Source: Arthrobacter liuii (lineage in GTDB: Bacteria > Actinomycetota > Actinomycetes > Actinomycetales > Micrococcaceae). Taken from it: a stretch of DNA of 64,000 nt. A program made the translations under genes and the position numbers. The stretch covers positions 124,001 to 188,000 of the forward strand of contig NZ_BMFW01000004.1 in the NCBI RefSeq assembly GCF_014639275.1. The letters are read 5' to 3'. Below are positions 3,177 to 59,063 of this stretch, piece by piece; the first letter of the stretch is position 1; every line of letters begins with the position of its first letter. A model generated the notes under the pieces. That model was not told the DNA's origin. It ran no database searches and worked only from the letters and a program-made list of their open reading frames with translations.

Positions 3177-4187
3177 GTGCTCATTGCACAGCGCCCCACC
3201 CTCTCCGAAGAGGTAGTCTCCGAAAACCGTTCGCGTTTCATCATTGAACCGCTGGAACCGGGCTTCGGCTACACCCTCGGAAACTCCCTCCGCCGTACCC
3301 TGCTCTCCTCCATCCCCGGTGCTGCCGTAACCAGCATCCGGATCGATGGTGTGCTGCACGAGTTCACCACGGTTCCGGGTGTCAAGGAAGATGTCACCGA
3401 GATCATCCTTAACATCAAGAGCCTGTCGGTTTCCTCCGAGCACGACGAGCCCGTCGTGGCTTACCTGCGCAAGCAGGGCCCCGGAGTCGTCACCGCCGCG
3501 GACATCGCTCCGCCGGCCGGCGTCGAATTCCACAACCCGGATCTGCACATCGCCACGCTGAACTCGAAGGGCAAGTTCGAACTCGAACTGACCATCGAGC
3601 GCGGCCGCGGCTACGTTTCGGCAGCTCAGAACAAGTCCGGCGACGCAGAGATCGGCCGTATCCCGGTCGACTCCATCTACTCGCCGGTCCTGAAGGTTAC
3701 TTTCCGCGTGGAAGCAACCCGTGTTGAGCAGCGCACCGACTTCGACAAGCTGATTGTCGACGTCGAGACCAAGCAGGCCATCGCCCCGCGCGATGCCGTC
3801 GCTTCCGCAGGCACCACCTTGGTGGAACTGTTCGGTCTGGCCCGTGAGCTGAACACCGCAGCTGAAGGTATCGAGATCGGCCCGTCGCCCACCGACGCTG
3901 CCCTGGCAGCCGACATGGCACTGCCGATCGAGGATCTGGACCTCACCGTCCGTTCCTACAACTGCCTCAAGCGTGAGGGCATCCACACCGTGGGTGAACT
4001 CGTTGCCCGCTCCGAGGCTGACCTGATGGACATCCGCAACTTCGGTGCCAAGTCCATTGACGAGGTCAAGGCAAAGCTGGTTGAACTGGGCCTGTCCCTC
4101 AAGGACTCGCCTCCCGGTTTTGACCTCGCAGCACGCGCCGCAGCAATCGAAGAGGACGACGCCGCGTTCGGCGACGACGAACTCTAA
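3177..4187 (+). CDS. rpoA: DNA-directed RNA polymerase alpha subunit
   Basis: A 336-residue alpha subunit with a GTG start at 3177 preceded by GAAAGGAAACCTAA. The N-terminal dimerisation domain (about 1-230) contains [22 protein letters not shown]. An acidic linker leads to the C-terminal domain (about 245-310), including [20 protein letters not shown] and [17 protein letters not shown], which bind UP-element DNA and activators. The tail [14 protein letters not shown] is acidic. It is followed by rplQ after 68 bases. Confidence 0.98.
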
Positions 4188-4255
4188 ACCAGACCTTGGC
4201 CGGCGGGCAGCACCATGGTGTGCCGCCCACGGCTTCCACATGAGGAGAAACAATT

Positions 4256-4828
4256 ATGCCTACCCCCACTAAGGGTCCGCGCCTCGGAGGCGGCCCGGCT
4301 CACGAGCGCCTCATGCTCGCGAACCTGGCAGCATCCCTGTTCGAGCACAAACGGATCACCACCACGGTGACCAAGGCCAAGCGCCTGAAGCCGTACGCAG
4401 AGCGCCTGGTCACCTTCGCCAAGCGCGGCGACCTCGCTTCCCGCCGCCGCGTTCTCGGCCTGATCAGCAACAAGGGCGTCGTCCACGAGCTGTTCAACGA
4501 CATCGCCCAGGCTGTGGAGAACCGCGACGGCGGCTACACCCGCATCACCAAGATCGGCAACCGCAAGGGCGACAACGCTCCCATGGCTGTCATCGAACTG
4601 GTCCTCGAGCCGGTTTCCGCAAAGCAGGCCGTCGTAGCCGAGGCTACCCAGGCCACCAAGCGCGACGCTGCCAAGGCTGCTCCGGCCGCCGAGGAAGCCC
4701 CCGAGGCTGAGGTCGTGGAGACCGAAGCTGCTGAGGCTCCTGTTGCTGAAGAAGCTGCAACCGAAGAGGCTCCGGCCGCTGAGGAAACTGCTGAAGCTCC
4801 CGCAGCCGAGGAGAAGGACGCGAAGTAA
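4256..4828 (+). CDS. rplQ: 50S ribosomal protein L17 with long Ala/Glu-rich tail
   Basis: A 190-residue L17. The conserved core (about 1-120) starts [21 protein letters not shown] and includes [21 protein letters not shown] and [20 protein letters not shown]. Residues from about 130 to 190 form a low-complexity acidic extension of repeated Ala, Glu and Pro ([17 protein letters not shown] and similar). Such tails are common in actinobacterial L17 and absent from the roughly 120-residue E. coli protein. A GAGGAGAAACAATT ribosome binding site lies before the ATG. A strong terminator follows, overlapping the proposed start of truA. Confidence 0.97.
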
Positions 4829-4860
4829 TTCGCTGATTCCCTTCGCATAGACTTAGGTCT

Positions 4861-5754
4861 GTGAACCACCAAAAACCCGCGGCCCCCGTTCCAGGGGGCG
4901 GCGGGTTTTTGCGTATCCGGCTTGATCTTTCGTACGACGGCGGCCCGTTCAGCGGGTGGGCACTGCAGCCAGGACGGCTGACCGTCCAGGGCGTCCTGGA
5001 GGAAGCGATCGAGCTCTTGGTCCGGCGCCCGGTCCGCGTGACCGTTGCCGGCCGCACCGACGCCGGGGTGCACGCCCGCGGCCAGGTGGTCCACCTTGAC
5101 CTGACCGAAGCCGAGTGGCTGGGACTGCCGCGCGGGCACGAACTGGATCCCGCCGTCGCCATGCTGCGCCGGCTCCGCGGCGCGTTGAGCCGCATCCTCG
5201 GGGACCTTACCGGCGCGGTGGAAGTGCACAGGATCTCCCTGGCACCCACCGGTTTCGACGCCCGTTTTTCCGCCCTTTGGCGGCGCTACAGTTACCGGAT
5301 CGCGGACGGGCCGGCGCTCTGGGATCCGTTGGAGCGATACTTCACGCTGTGGCACCGGAACCCGCTGGACGTATCCCTGCTCAACCAAGGGGCCTCGAAG
5401 CTCCTCGGGCTGCAGAACTTCCTGTCCTTCTGCAAGCCCCGGGAGGGCGCCACCACCGTCCGGGAACTCCAGCGCTTCGAGTTCAGGCGGGGCGAGGACG
5501 GCGTCATCGTGGCCACCGTCCAGGCCGACGCCTTCTGCCACAACATGGTGCGCGCACTGATCGGCTCCGCGCTCTACGTGGGTGAGGGGACCGAGGCGCC
5601 GGGCTGGCTGCACGAGCGGCTGCTGCTGCAGAAACGGGACGCCAAATCCGTCCTGGCCGCCCCGCACCCCCTGGTGCTGGAGGAAGTGGCCTACCCGTCG
5701 GACAGCGAACTATTGGCCCGCGCCGAACTAACCCGCGCCGTCCGCAAGTACTAA
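4861..5754 (+). CDS. truA: tRNA pseudouridine(38-40) synthase TruA
   Basis: A TruA-type pseudouridine synthase of up to 297 residues. The catalytic aspartate sits in GRTDAGVHARGQVVHLD, and the N-terminal LDLSYDGGPFSGWA and C-terminal FCHNMVRALIGSAL motifs are typical. It isomerises uridines 38-40 in the anticodon stem-loop. The longest frame uses GTG 4861, but its first 16 codons are exactly the arms of a terminator-like hairpin (4871-4910). The family core begins at LRIRLDLSYDG, and codon 17 (TTG 4909) is a possible alternative start lying just after the T-run. No good ribosome binding site is visible for either. It is convergent with the histidine kinase. Confidence 0.95.
   Translation: MNHQKPAAPVPGGGGFLRIRLDLSYDGGPFSGWALQPGRLTVQGVLEEAIELLVRRPVRVTVAGRTDAGVHARGQVVHLDLTEAEWLGLPRGHELDPAVAMLRRLRGALSRILGDLTGAVEVHRISLAPTGFDARFSALWRRYSYRIADGPALWDPLERYFTLWHRNPLDVSLLNQGASKLLGLQNFLSFCKPREGATTVRELQRFEFRRGEDGVIVATVQADAFCHNMVRALIGSALYVGEGTEAPGWLHERLLLQKRDAKSVLAAPHPLVLEEVAYPSDSELLARAELTRAVRKY
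4871..4910 (+). terminator. Rho-independent terminator of rplQ inside the truA 5' end
   Basis: AAAAACCCGCGGCCCCC (4871-4887) pairs with GGGGGCGGCGGGTTTTT (4894-4910), with one two-base mismatch and a run of five T. It ends the ribosomal-protein transcript. It is also in-frame coding DNA for residues 4-17 of the longest truA frame. Confidence 0.85.
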
Positions 5755-55309: not shown

Positions 55310-56395
55310 GTGTCTTCACATCCGATCCGTGTTGCAATCGTTGGCGTGGGTAACTGCGCTGCCTCGCTGGTGCAGGGCGTCCAGTATTACAAGGATGCCA
55401 ATCCGGCCGATACTGTTCCGGGCTTGATGCATGTTGAGTTTGGCCAGTACCACGTGGGTGACGTTGAGTTCGTCGCCGCGTTTGATGTGGACGGCAAGAA
55501 GGTGGGCCATGACCTGTCTGCGGCGATCCTGGCGAGCGAGAACAACACGATCAAGATTGCGGATGTCCCGCCAACCGGTGTCACGGTCCAGCGTGGCCAC
55601 ACCCTGGACGGGCTGGGCAAGTACTACCTTGAGACCATCGAGCAGTCCACCGAAGAGCCCGTGGACGTTGTCCAGGCTTTGAAGGACGCCAAGGTTGATG
55701 TCATGGTCTGCTACCTGCCGGTCGGTTCGCAGGAGGCTGCCGAGTTTTACGCCCAGTGCGCGATTGACGCAGGGGTGGCGTTCGTGAATGCACTGCCGGT
55801 GTTTATTGCCGGGACGAAGGAGTGGGCTGACAAGTTCACGGCTGCTGGGGTGCCGATCGTGGGTGACGACATCAAGAGCCAGATCGGTGCGACCATTACG
55901 CACCGGGTGATGGCGAAGCTGTTCGAGGACCGGGGTGTGACCCTGGACCGGACGTACCAGCTGAACGTTGGTGGAAACATGGATTTCAAGAACATGCTGG
56001 AGCGTGACCGGCTGGAGTCCAAGAAGATTTCCAAGACCCAGGCGGTGACGTCCAACGTTGAGGCTGAGCTGGCTGCCAAGGATGTCCACATTGGCCCGTC
56101 AGATTATGTGCAGTGGCTTGATGATCGGAAGTGGGCGTTTGTCCGCCTTGAAGGCCGGAACTTTGGTGACGCGCCGGTGTCCCTGGAGTACAAGCTGGAG
56201 GTTTGGGATTCGCCGAACTCTGCCGGTGTGATCATCGACGCGATCCGTGCGGCGAAGATCGGCCTGGACCGTGGGATCGGCGGGCCGCTGCTGTCGGCGT
56301 CGAGCTACTTCATGAAGTCCCCGCCGGAGCAGTTCAACGACGACCTCGCCCGCGAAAAGGTCGAGGCCTTCATCCGCGGCGACCTGGAGCGCTAA
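55310..56395 (+). CDS. ino1: Inositol-3-phosphate synthase
   Basis: A 361-residue enzyme from the GTG at 55310. The Rossmann motif is [42 protein letters not shown] and [22 protein letters not shown] are hallmark motifs of the actinobacterial form. It converts glucose-6-phosphate to inositol-1-phosphate (1L-myo-inositol 3-/1-phosphate), needed for mycothiol and phosphatidylinositol. MshA, which uses the product, is encoded close by at 57798. AAGGAGTTCT before the GTG is a good ribosome binding site. Confidence 0.97.
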
Positions 56396-56398
56396 ACC

Positions 56399-56434
56399 TG
56401 ACGCTCCCTCACCCTCCGGGGTGGGGGAGCGTTT
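56399..56434 (+). terminator. Terminator of ino1
   Basis: ACGCTCCC...CACC (56401-56414) pairs with GGTG...GGGGAGCGT (56420-56432), followed by TTTCCCCTT. Close to the ino1 stop. Confidence 0.75.
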
Positions 56435-56443
56435 CCCCTTAAC

Positions 56444-56530
56444 ACGCCCGCTCACCTTCGAAGGGTATTTCCGAAACGCGCGCTCACTTTTGACGGGTTT
56501 TTCAGGAACGCCCGCTCACCTGAAGTGGCA
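56444..56530. repeat. 32-base tandem repeat, about 2.5 copies
   Basis: Units start ACGCCCGCTCACCTT (56444), ACGCGCGCTCACTTT (56476) and ACGCCCGCTCACCTG (56508), spaced exactly 32 bases. The second half of each unit resembles GACGGGTTTTTCNGGA. The third unit is partial. No gene overlaps it. It lies between the ino1 terminator and the 3' end of the chimeric gene. Confidence 0.8.
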
Positions 56531-56669
56531 TCCTTCCCAGCGTCCCTCAGAATGATCGGGGCGGGGATGGATCTGGCTTGTCCAGGTCGAGGTCTGCCCA
56601 TGGGGGCCAAACGCGAGAGCTTGGCGGCGGGACCAGAAGCCCAAAGATCCCACGCATGGACCGCTGCAA

Positions 56670-57689
56670 CTAGCAGCTGCTGACGAAACCCGCCGTGACC
56701 GTGGATTCCGACAAAGAACTTCTCAGGGCCCGCCTGATCTTCTTGATGGCGGCCGCGAAGTTGTCTTCCTGATCGGCTTTGTCGATGATGACGACAGTCC
56801 ATCCCGCTGCTTCAAAAGACCTGTCCCTTCTCCGGTCGCTTATACGCTGCGGTTCCAGAAGGTGGTGCCCGCCGTCGTACTGGATGGCAATTCTTTGCCT
56901 GCCGTAGCCTAGATCGGCCGACGGTGACCGAGGGTCTCCAGGCCGAAGTTTCAGCTGCAACTCAGGCGCAGGAAGGTTTGAGTCCATCATGGCCAATCGA
57001 AGGAAGGTCTCAGGAGCAGAGTCGGACCCCACCCGCACCAGTTCCAGTGCCTGTCTGGCACGCACAACGCCTTGGAGATTCGGATGGCGGGTAATGAGCG
57101 CCCGCAGTTCCCCAATCGTTGAGTGAGGGCTGTCCCTGTCCTCGAAGTCGAGCCGAGGCTGACGGACTAATTCGTCTCCCATGGCCACCAAGTCGCCCAG
57201 GGGTAACTGCCTTGCCATGATGTTCAGCGCGTTGCCCTGGTAGATGTGGTTGTCCACCAGTGCCATCAGGGCGTTGTTGGCCGAAGTGATCGCATGGAAG
57301 TCCCCGGTGAAGTGCAGGTTGATCTCATTCATGGGGAGCACCTGCGAATAACCCCCGCCGGTGGCGCCGCCCTTCATGCCCAGGACCGGGCCCAGCGACG
57401 GCTCCCGCAGCGCGATCATCACCTTGTGGCCGGCCCGGGCCAGCGAGTCGGCCAACCCCACAGTGGTGGTGGACTTGCCCTCGCCGGCCGGGGTGGGGGA
57501 CATGGCCGAGACCAGCACCACCTTGCCGTGCGGAGCCGGCGCCGTAAGCCTGGCCGGATCGATTTTCGCCTTGTACCGCCCGTACTGTTCCAGCGCGTCA
57601 GAATTGACCCCCGCCGCGGCCGCGATCTCCCCAATGGGCCGGATCCGGGCAGCCCTGGCTATCTCAAGATCAGAAGGAAGCGCAGACAT
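56670..57689 (-). CDS. Chimeric ORF: truncated formate-tetrahydrofolate ligase joined to endonuclease-like domain
   Basis: A 339-residue in-frame chimera. Residues 1-157 are the N-terminus of Fhs: MSALPSDLEIARAARIRPIG, the ATP loop TPAGEGKSTTTVGLADSLARAG, GMKGGATGGGYSQVLPMNEINL (quoted in parts) and NHIYQGNALNI. A complete Fhs has about 550 residues, so most of the enzyme is missing. From about residue 158 (near 57218) the sequence changes to a DUF559/very-short-patch-repair-like protein tail: TIGELRALITRHPNLQG, LVRVGSDSAPETFLRLAMMD, IAIQYDGGHHLLEPQRISDRRRDR and AAGWTVVIIDKAD. The AAGGACAAGG ribosome binding site belongs to fhs. Ligase activity is almost certainly lost; nuclease function is unproven. 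Confidence 0.8.
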   Translation of the reverse strand: MSALPSDLEIARAARIRPIGEIAAAAGVNSDALEQYGRYKAKIDPARLTAPAPHGKVVLVSAMSPTPAGEGKSTTTVGLADSLARAGHKVMIALREPSLGPVLGMKGGATGGGYSQVLPMNEINLHFTGDFHAITSANNALMALVDNHIYQGNALNIMARQLPLGDLVAMGDELVRQPRLDFEDRDSPHSTIGELRALITRHPNLQGVVRARQALELVRVGSDSAPETFLRLAMMDSNLPAPELQLKLRPGDPRSPSADLGYGRQRIAIQYDGGHHLLEPQRISDRRRDRSFEAAGWTVVIIDKADQEDNFAAAIKKIRRALRSSLSESTVTAGFVSSC

Positions 57690-57797
57690 CCTTGTCCTTT
57701 CCCGCACCGGCAGGCGCCGGACACCTGCCCCTAAGCTAACAGCACGCCGGGCGGAGAACGAAGGGCCGCGCACGAATGAACAAAGCTGGAAGGAAAT

Positions 57798-59063
57798 TCA
57801 GGAGGCAGGAACCACCGGCGCCAGGCGGCGGCCCACAAAGGTGTCGACGGCGGCGTGGTAGCTTTCCAGCGTGATCGCGGCAGTGCGCTGCCAGCCGGAG
57901 TTTTGGGCGCGGATGGCGGCGGCGCGGCCCAGGTCCTCGCGGGTGGCGGGGTCGTCGTACAGGGCTTCCAGCGCATCCGCCCAGTCTGCCGCGTGATGGC
58001 CGTCCACCAGAAGGCCGGTGCGGCCATGGAAGATGGCCCGGGAAAGCCCGCCGACGCGGGTGGCCACCACGGGCGTGCCGCAGGCCTGCGCCTCAAGGGC
58101 CACCAGCCCGAAGGATTCGCTGAAGGAAGGCATCACCACAACGTCCGCCGCCCGGAACCAGGACGCAAGCTCAGGCGCCTTCACCGGCGGAAGCTGCGTG
58201 ACGACGTCGTCCATTCCTGCCTCCGCCACCAGGCAGCGGAGGTTGAATTCCTTGTTGCCGCTCAATGCGCCCAGGACGGTGACGCGCAGGTCGATGTCCG
58301 GGCGGCGTTTCCGCAGCAGCGCGGCAGCCTTGACCAGGACCTGCGGGCCCTTCAGCCGCTGGATGCGGCCCGCGAACACCAGATGGAAGGTGTCGGGGCT
58401 GACGCCGTGCTCCGCTCTGGAGCGTGCCCGGAATGCGGGGGTGAACGTGGCGAGGTCCACGCCGGGCGGCGCGATGTCGATCCGGTCGTAGGCGGCGCCG
58501 TAGTGGGACACCAATTCGGCGGCCTCCGAGCTGGTGTTGGCGATGAGCCGGGCCGCGCCGTCCACGATGCGGTGTTCGCCCACCTCGCGCCGCCGGGGCT
58601 CGGGCTGTTCGCCGGACTCCAGCAGCAGGTTCTTGACCTTGGCCATGGTGTGCATGGTGTGCACCAGGGGCACGCCCCACAGCTGGGACAACTCCAGCCC
58701 GGCGATCCCGGACACCCAGTAATGCGAATGGATGACGTCGTACCGGCCGTGGGGCTGGCGGCGGCGGATCTGCTCGATCTCAGCAACCATGGCGTGCAGC
58801 AGGCCGGGAAGTTCCTCTTTGGGGATCTTTTGGGGCGGGCCGGCGAGGACGTTGTGCACGCACACGCCGGGATCCGGGTGCTCGACGGCGGGCTGGTCGG
58901 CCGAGGTGGCACGCGTAAAGATCTCCACCTCCACGCCCGCCTCGGCCAGTGCTGAAGCCAGCTCGCGGATATAGACGTTCATTCCGCCGGCATCGCCGGA
59001 GCCCGGCTGTTCCATGGGCGAGGTGTGGAGGGAGAGCAAAGCGACCCTGCGGATCAGTGCCAT
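57798..59063 (-). CDS. mshA: D-inositol-3-phosphate glycosyltransferase (mycothiol synthesis)
   Basis: A 421-residue GT4 enzyme with MshA signatures: RVALLSLHTSPMEQPGSGDAGGMNVYIRE (quoted here in part by its motifs SPMEQPG and GDAGGMNVYI), HSHYWVSGIAGLEL, TMHTMAKVKN, VFAGRIQRLKGPQVL and MPSFSESFGLVALEAQACGTPVV (E-x7-E). It transfers GlcNAc from UDP-GlcNAc to inositol-3-phosphate, the first step of mycothiol synthesis. The start MALIRRVALLS at 59063 is preceded by GGAAGGAGGTCCC, an excellent site. Ino1, its substrate supplier, lies just beyond the chimeric gene. Confidence 0.95.
   Translation of the reverse strand: MALIRRVALLSLHTSPMEQPGSGDAGGMNVYIRELASALAEAGVEVEIFTRATSADQPAVEHPDPGVCVHNVLAGPPQKIPKEELPGLLHAMVAEIEQIRRRQPHGRYDVIHSHYWVSGIAGLELSQLWGVPLVHTMHTMAKVKNLLLESGEQPEPRRREVGEHRIVDGAARLIANTSSEAAELVSHYGAAYDRIDIAPPGVDLATFTPAFRARSRAEHGVSPDTFHLVFAGRIQRLKGPQVLVKAAALLRKRRPDIDLRVTVLGALSGNKEFNLRCLVAEAGMDDVVTQLPPVKAPELASWFRAADVVVMPSFSESFGLVALEAQACGTPVVATRVGGLSRAIFHGRTGLLVDGHHAADWADALEALYDDPATREDLGRAAAIRAQNSGWQRTAAITLESYHAAVDTFVGRRLAPVVPAS

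Follow-up and report, generated by a model that had tools for sequence, protein, structure and literature searches.

In Arthrobacter liuii, the only formate-THF ligase gene (fhs) of the genome has very probably been inactivated by a recent deletion that fused it in frame to the gene behind it, leaving a nuclease-like domain perhaps expressible under the fhs signals. The fusion lies in a stretch of 64,000 nucleotides, hereafter the window. A single and probably recent deletion would have removed about 1.8 kb of DNA between codon 157 of fhs and codon 138 of the gene that follows, with the ends presumably joined without notable homology. The new frame would be read from the fhs start signals, its product would be devoid of ligase activity, and 10-formyl-THF would then be supplied by FolD. 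Decay is the more likely course for the nuclease-like domain, although it may still be produced in a form lacking the AbiEi-like N-terminus. The locus is a clean example of a chimeric frame born by deletion between two neighbours.

The chimeric frame and its two halves

The fusion begins with the ATG at 57689 and stops at 56670 on the minus strand; the list of open reading frames gives a longer version, reaching 367 aa from a GTG at 57773. The start at 57689 was favoured because the conserved GGAAAGGAC stands immediately ahead of its ATG (table 1). In detail, the leader TGTTAGCTTAGGGGCAGG is whole in five of the six relatives compared, and the stretch of the sixth (L024) begins inside it. A search of positions 56380-58000 gave no match to a sigma-70-type promoter. 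The original prediction of an in-frame hybrid, whose first 157 residues including the ATP loop are Fhs and whose remainder is nuclease-like, agrees with what was found: a frame of 339 aa with Fhs residues 1-157 and then 182 residues of another protein, the first part being recognized by the ends of the blastn matches, by Pfam FTHFS and by the motif PTPAGEGKST. Since a random deletion preserves the frame about one time in three, the open frame of the fusion is unremarkable by itself.

Table 1. Features of the fusion locus, in positions of the window.
Feature	Position	Strand	Remark
Chimeric open frame, 339 aa + stop	56670..57689	-	Without internal stop
Fhs codons 1-157, with P-loop PTPAGEGKST and REPSLGP segment	57219..57689	-	blastn, Pfam FTHFS, alignment to solved FTHFS 1fp7
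Neighbour gene from codon 138 to end (L022 numbering), including nuclease-like core (fusion residues ~230-325)	56670..57218	-	
Deletion junction	57218..57219	-	One base (C) ambiguous
Retained fhs leader	57690..57741	-	GGAAAGGAC ahead of start in 6/6 relatives compared
Glycosyltransferase-like flank upstream of fhs	57798..59063	-	Conserved neighbour
Inositol-phosphate-synthase-like flank, converging on fusion	55310..56395	+	Conserved neighbour

In all 14 relatives' loci (L022-L035), the blastn alignment of the Fhs part reaches query base 470 or 471 and goes no further. Pfam FTHFS covers fusion residues 6-177 (E 7.8e-70, profile positions 2-176 of 556); because the DNA comparison ends Fhs at residue 157, the last part of this match is read as a chance extension into the tail. 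Eight distinct solved-structure sequences of FTHFS match this half. Compared with Fhs proteins (PF01268, NF010030), fusion residues 1-157 are 98.1% identical in protein to those of Arthrobacter sp. ISL-85 (L070), and the P-loop is kept and aligned to 1fp7, whereas about 400 C-terminal residues of the intact enzyme are missing. The fusion remains below the cut-off of the FTHFS equivalog profile (251 vs 652 bits, profile 3-177 of 557), and the intact Fhs protein of L022 reaches 893.3 bits with the same profile. Most of the folate-binding part of FTHFS lies in the segment absent from the fusion. With about 400 of some 560 residues gone, including most of this part, the sequence indicates that the ligase function has very likely been lost.

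The tail is closest to L023 among the relatives (73% identical). Compared with the AbiEi-like/DUF559 proteins located beside fhs in Arthrobacter, which are near MTES_1575 (PF18741) and DUF559 (PF04480), the fusion keeps the C-terminal 182 residues and has lost the AbiEi-like N-terminus (137 residues in L022). Its scores are under the curated Pfam cut-offs of MTES_1575 and DUF559 (21.9 vs 38.2 and 16.3 vs 20.6 bits, respectively), and so are those of the two intact parents tested. The AbiEi-like region of the intact neighbour comprises residues 16-141 of L022. Models of AbiEi, an abortive infection antitoxin, match 36 of the 37 members of an alignment (A3) of 36 parents and the fusion, and the fusion scanned alone gave no AbiEi match. 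E227, D259, D272, H275, H276 and D285 are among the nearly invariant columns shared by the fusion and ten parental tails, and Q270 is also kept; many DUF559 proteins have E where the family of the fusion has Q.

The model of the L022 parent is similar to the Vsr-like nuclease fold of I-Bth0305I (3r3p), with a weak E-value: its C-terminal part matched 3r3p_B in Foldseek with probability 1.00, TM 0.72 by target length, E 0.045 and 13% identity. Two mitoribosome chains were placed above it (E 0.012, low TM-scores), and no PDB structure matched the model at E 0.001 or better. The break at parent residue 137/138 corresponds to the end of a helix linking the AbiEi-like and nuclease-like parts, and the core is modelled at ~205-305; with a break at this position, the fusion retains the nuclease-like core and its conserved columns. 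In the model of the fusion (overall mean pLDDT 48.5), the core shows block pLDDT 63-92 and the Fhs half 23-41, the latter carrying little weight since only three relatives of the Fhs half entered the alignment. In another species (L058, G116), an AbiEi-like/DUF559 neighbour is 5'-shortened (3224-3940, 238 aa from a TTG start) and follows directly after an intact fhs frame. This short form, together with the fusion, suggests that the N-terminus of the neighbour has apparently been lost repeatedly within the genus.

Deletion junction and distribution in relatives

The relatives' loci derive from Arthrobacter and Pseudarthrobacter, records of the window's own genome being excluded. In L022 and L024, a glycosyltransferase gene is followed by fhs (~560 codons), a gene of 318-319 codons on the fhs strand and a converging inositol-phosphate-synthase-like gene, with fhs and its neighbour intact and adjacent. 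Both flanking genes are retained in the window in unchanged order; the upstream one we take to be mshA, glycosyltransferase-like, and the other is presumably inositol-phosphate-synthase-like. Relatives carry, side by side and in the same order, the two genes that a deletion had been proposed to join. The position proposed for the junction, 57218, and the loss of about 400 fhs codons with the start of the neighbour also stood, 137 neighbour codons being absent relative to L022. Compared with the loci whose tails are most similar, the loss amounts to 1827 (L022), 1827 (L023) and 1850 bases (L024), and the tail offset in four more distant loci is 1739-1801 bases; L032 was left out of this comparison because its tail alignment was misplaced.

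The junction reads CTGAACATC/ATGGCA, the slash marking the break. The fhs-derived and neighbour-derived ends have a single C in common, too little for meaningful microhomology, and comparison of the junction with the relatives' loci revealed no repeat at the breakpoint. Ku has one match in the own genome, and the presence of this gene makes non-homologous end joining a fitting route. A repeat-mediated deletion was rejected: intergenic short repeats exist in L022 and L023, yet the breakpoints fall within coding regions. Short repeats on GTGAGCGGGCGT also lie in the spacer that separates the fusion from the converging gene (window 56440-56521); they occur at 11 places in the own genome (at most one mismatch) against none for the reversed control, and similar ones, inverted, are found between fhs and the neighbour in L022 and L023.

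Among the matches listed, 22 of the 36 genomes of the genus carry a homologue of the tail on the fhs strand, ~2.0-2.4 kb downstream of the fhs start; in the remaining ones listed, either fhs was not detected or the tail lies at another site, on a different contig or in inverted orientation. The fetched loci (n=141; L003-L145 without L066 and L067, duplicates included and many with short flanks) contain the Fhs part in 133 cases, the tail in 89 and both on one strand in 78. In none of these 78 are the parts fused, and 1212 to 1955 bases separate them. A junction-spanning query found matches in 203 of the 206 genus genomes (own included). Among the matches listed, only the window's own covers query 1-231 and the others end at base 112 or before; the same fusion was seen in no other genus genome among these matches, and no second genome of the species was among the genomes compared. 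Two candidates were rejected. L130, which seemed to cross the junction (132-338), has fhs and the neighbour in separate frames ~1.76 kb apart, and L139, apparently with the same truncation (residue 153), has fhs continuing in another frame, that is, a frameshift. The latter (4001-5676) is the fhs of Arthrobacter nitrophenolicus SJCon, split near codon 153, where a sequencing error is possible. In a plasmid collection the junction query matched 23 records, each over less than 80% of the query length, and in the best 8 of the 23 the fhs side alone is covered. In the literature, no report of this Fhs/nuclease-like fusion was found among titles and abstract openings.

Selective constraint and competing explanations

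Neither half of the fusion contains a stop or frameshift. Measured against its eight nearest sequences, the Fhs half shows a median dN/dS of 0.050, compared with a median of 0.093 for 107 other sequences, of which 91 are at or above the value of the window. No unique residue occurs in this half at columns at least 95% conserved, and 4 nonsynonymous and 38 synonymous differences separate it from L070. If branches are equal and the Fhs half has been neutral since the deletion, the neutral share of the branch would be at most ~15% (L070), 17% (L068) or 25% (L090). The tail shows a dN/dS of 0.171 (median 0.145; 29 of the 78 others at or above 0.171) and one unique residue at a conserved column, G263; 20 of the 78 others have at least one such residue. 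By relative-rate counts, neither half has changed markedly more in the window (largest chi-square 2.13). The normal purifying constraint of the Fhs half (dN/dS ~0.05) would indicate either that the deletion occurred recently on its branch or that the piece is still used; as far as these sequence figures go, they are compatible with a recent deletion and equally with a retained protein.

It is unlikely that the fusion is a functional new two-domain protein, in which an Fhs fragment bearing the P-loop replaces the AbiEi-like N-terminus and places the nuclease-like protein under the fhs expression signals. Such a protein would fit the open frame, the position of the break, 137/138, close to where the AbiEi-like match ends (16-141, L022) and ahead of the modelled core (~205-305), the preservation of E227, D259, Q270, D272, H275, H276 and D285, and the low dN/dS of the Fhs half. 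Indeed, the lack of stops and frameshifts in both halves, as expected of a retained protein too, and a constraint of the Fhs half no looser than in relatives are points against decay. However, a recent loss would give the low dN/dS just as readily, Fhs is cut inside the enzyme, its half is modelled at low confidence (three relatives in the alignment), and other genus genomes lack the fusion among the matches listed. With most of Fhs gone and no fusion among the listed matches of other genomes, the fresh pseudogene pair that the original prediction had offered as one of two options is better supported than its other option, a new two-domain protein. Quite unlikely, in turn, is a young chimera with the nuclease domain, in which the AbiEi-like (regulatory) part has been swapped for the Fhs nucleotide-binding fragment under the fhs signals and one-carbon metabolism depends wholly on FolD.

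An assembly error, with both genes intact and 1.8 kb dropped by the assembler, is very unlikely. The draft state of the genome (99 contigs) would allow it, but the junction has no repeat, with one base shared, the site lies inside a contig of 315 kb and no piece of FTHFS is present on the other contigs.

Loss of fhs and one-carbon metabolism

The genome (4.82 Mb, completeness given as 100%) has the 157-codon fragment as its sole FTHFS match, and neither a second fhs copy nor scattered pieces were detected at E 0.001 on any of its contigs; the proviso that fhs is lost unless another copy exists is thereby answered in favour of loss. This loss is apparently rare in the genus, as 204 of the 206 genomes have an FTHFS match, a count that includes the own fragment and the weaker-scoring G160, G093, G029, G104, G127 and G188. 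The match is absent from G018 and G026, neither being a clear loss. G026 has a completeness of 68%. In G018 an assembly gap is as likely as a second loss of fhs, since the contig (L152, end of C12) ends 544 bases past the nuclease-like tail match.

Two FolD matches and six matches of the formyl-transferase type were found in the own genome. The two folD genes, as recognized by sequence, would probably buffer the loss of Fhs, with 10-formyl-THF still makeable. In a study on Listeria, strains lacking fhs showed no defect that could be observed as long as they had FolD (PMC10653936); a point against harmless loss is that fhs is described, in another study, as essential in some strains of Streptococcus pneumoniae and not in others (PMC9519441). 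Tolerance in the one and essentiality in the other make the loss of fhs plausible, and not sure to be cost-free. If further strains of the species are found, they would provide a natural test of the dispensability of Fhs beside two folD genes. The folD-type genes are located at C11 6805-7278 and C1 368545-369051, and a gene of the formyl-transferase type lies ~3.6 kb from the one on C11.
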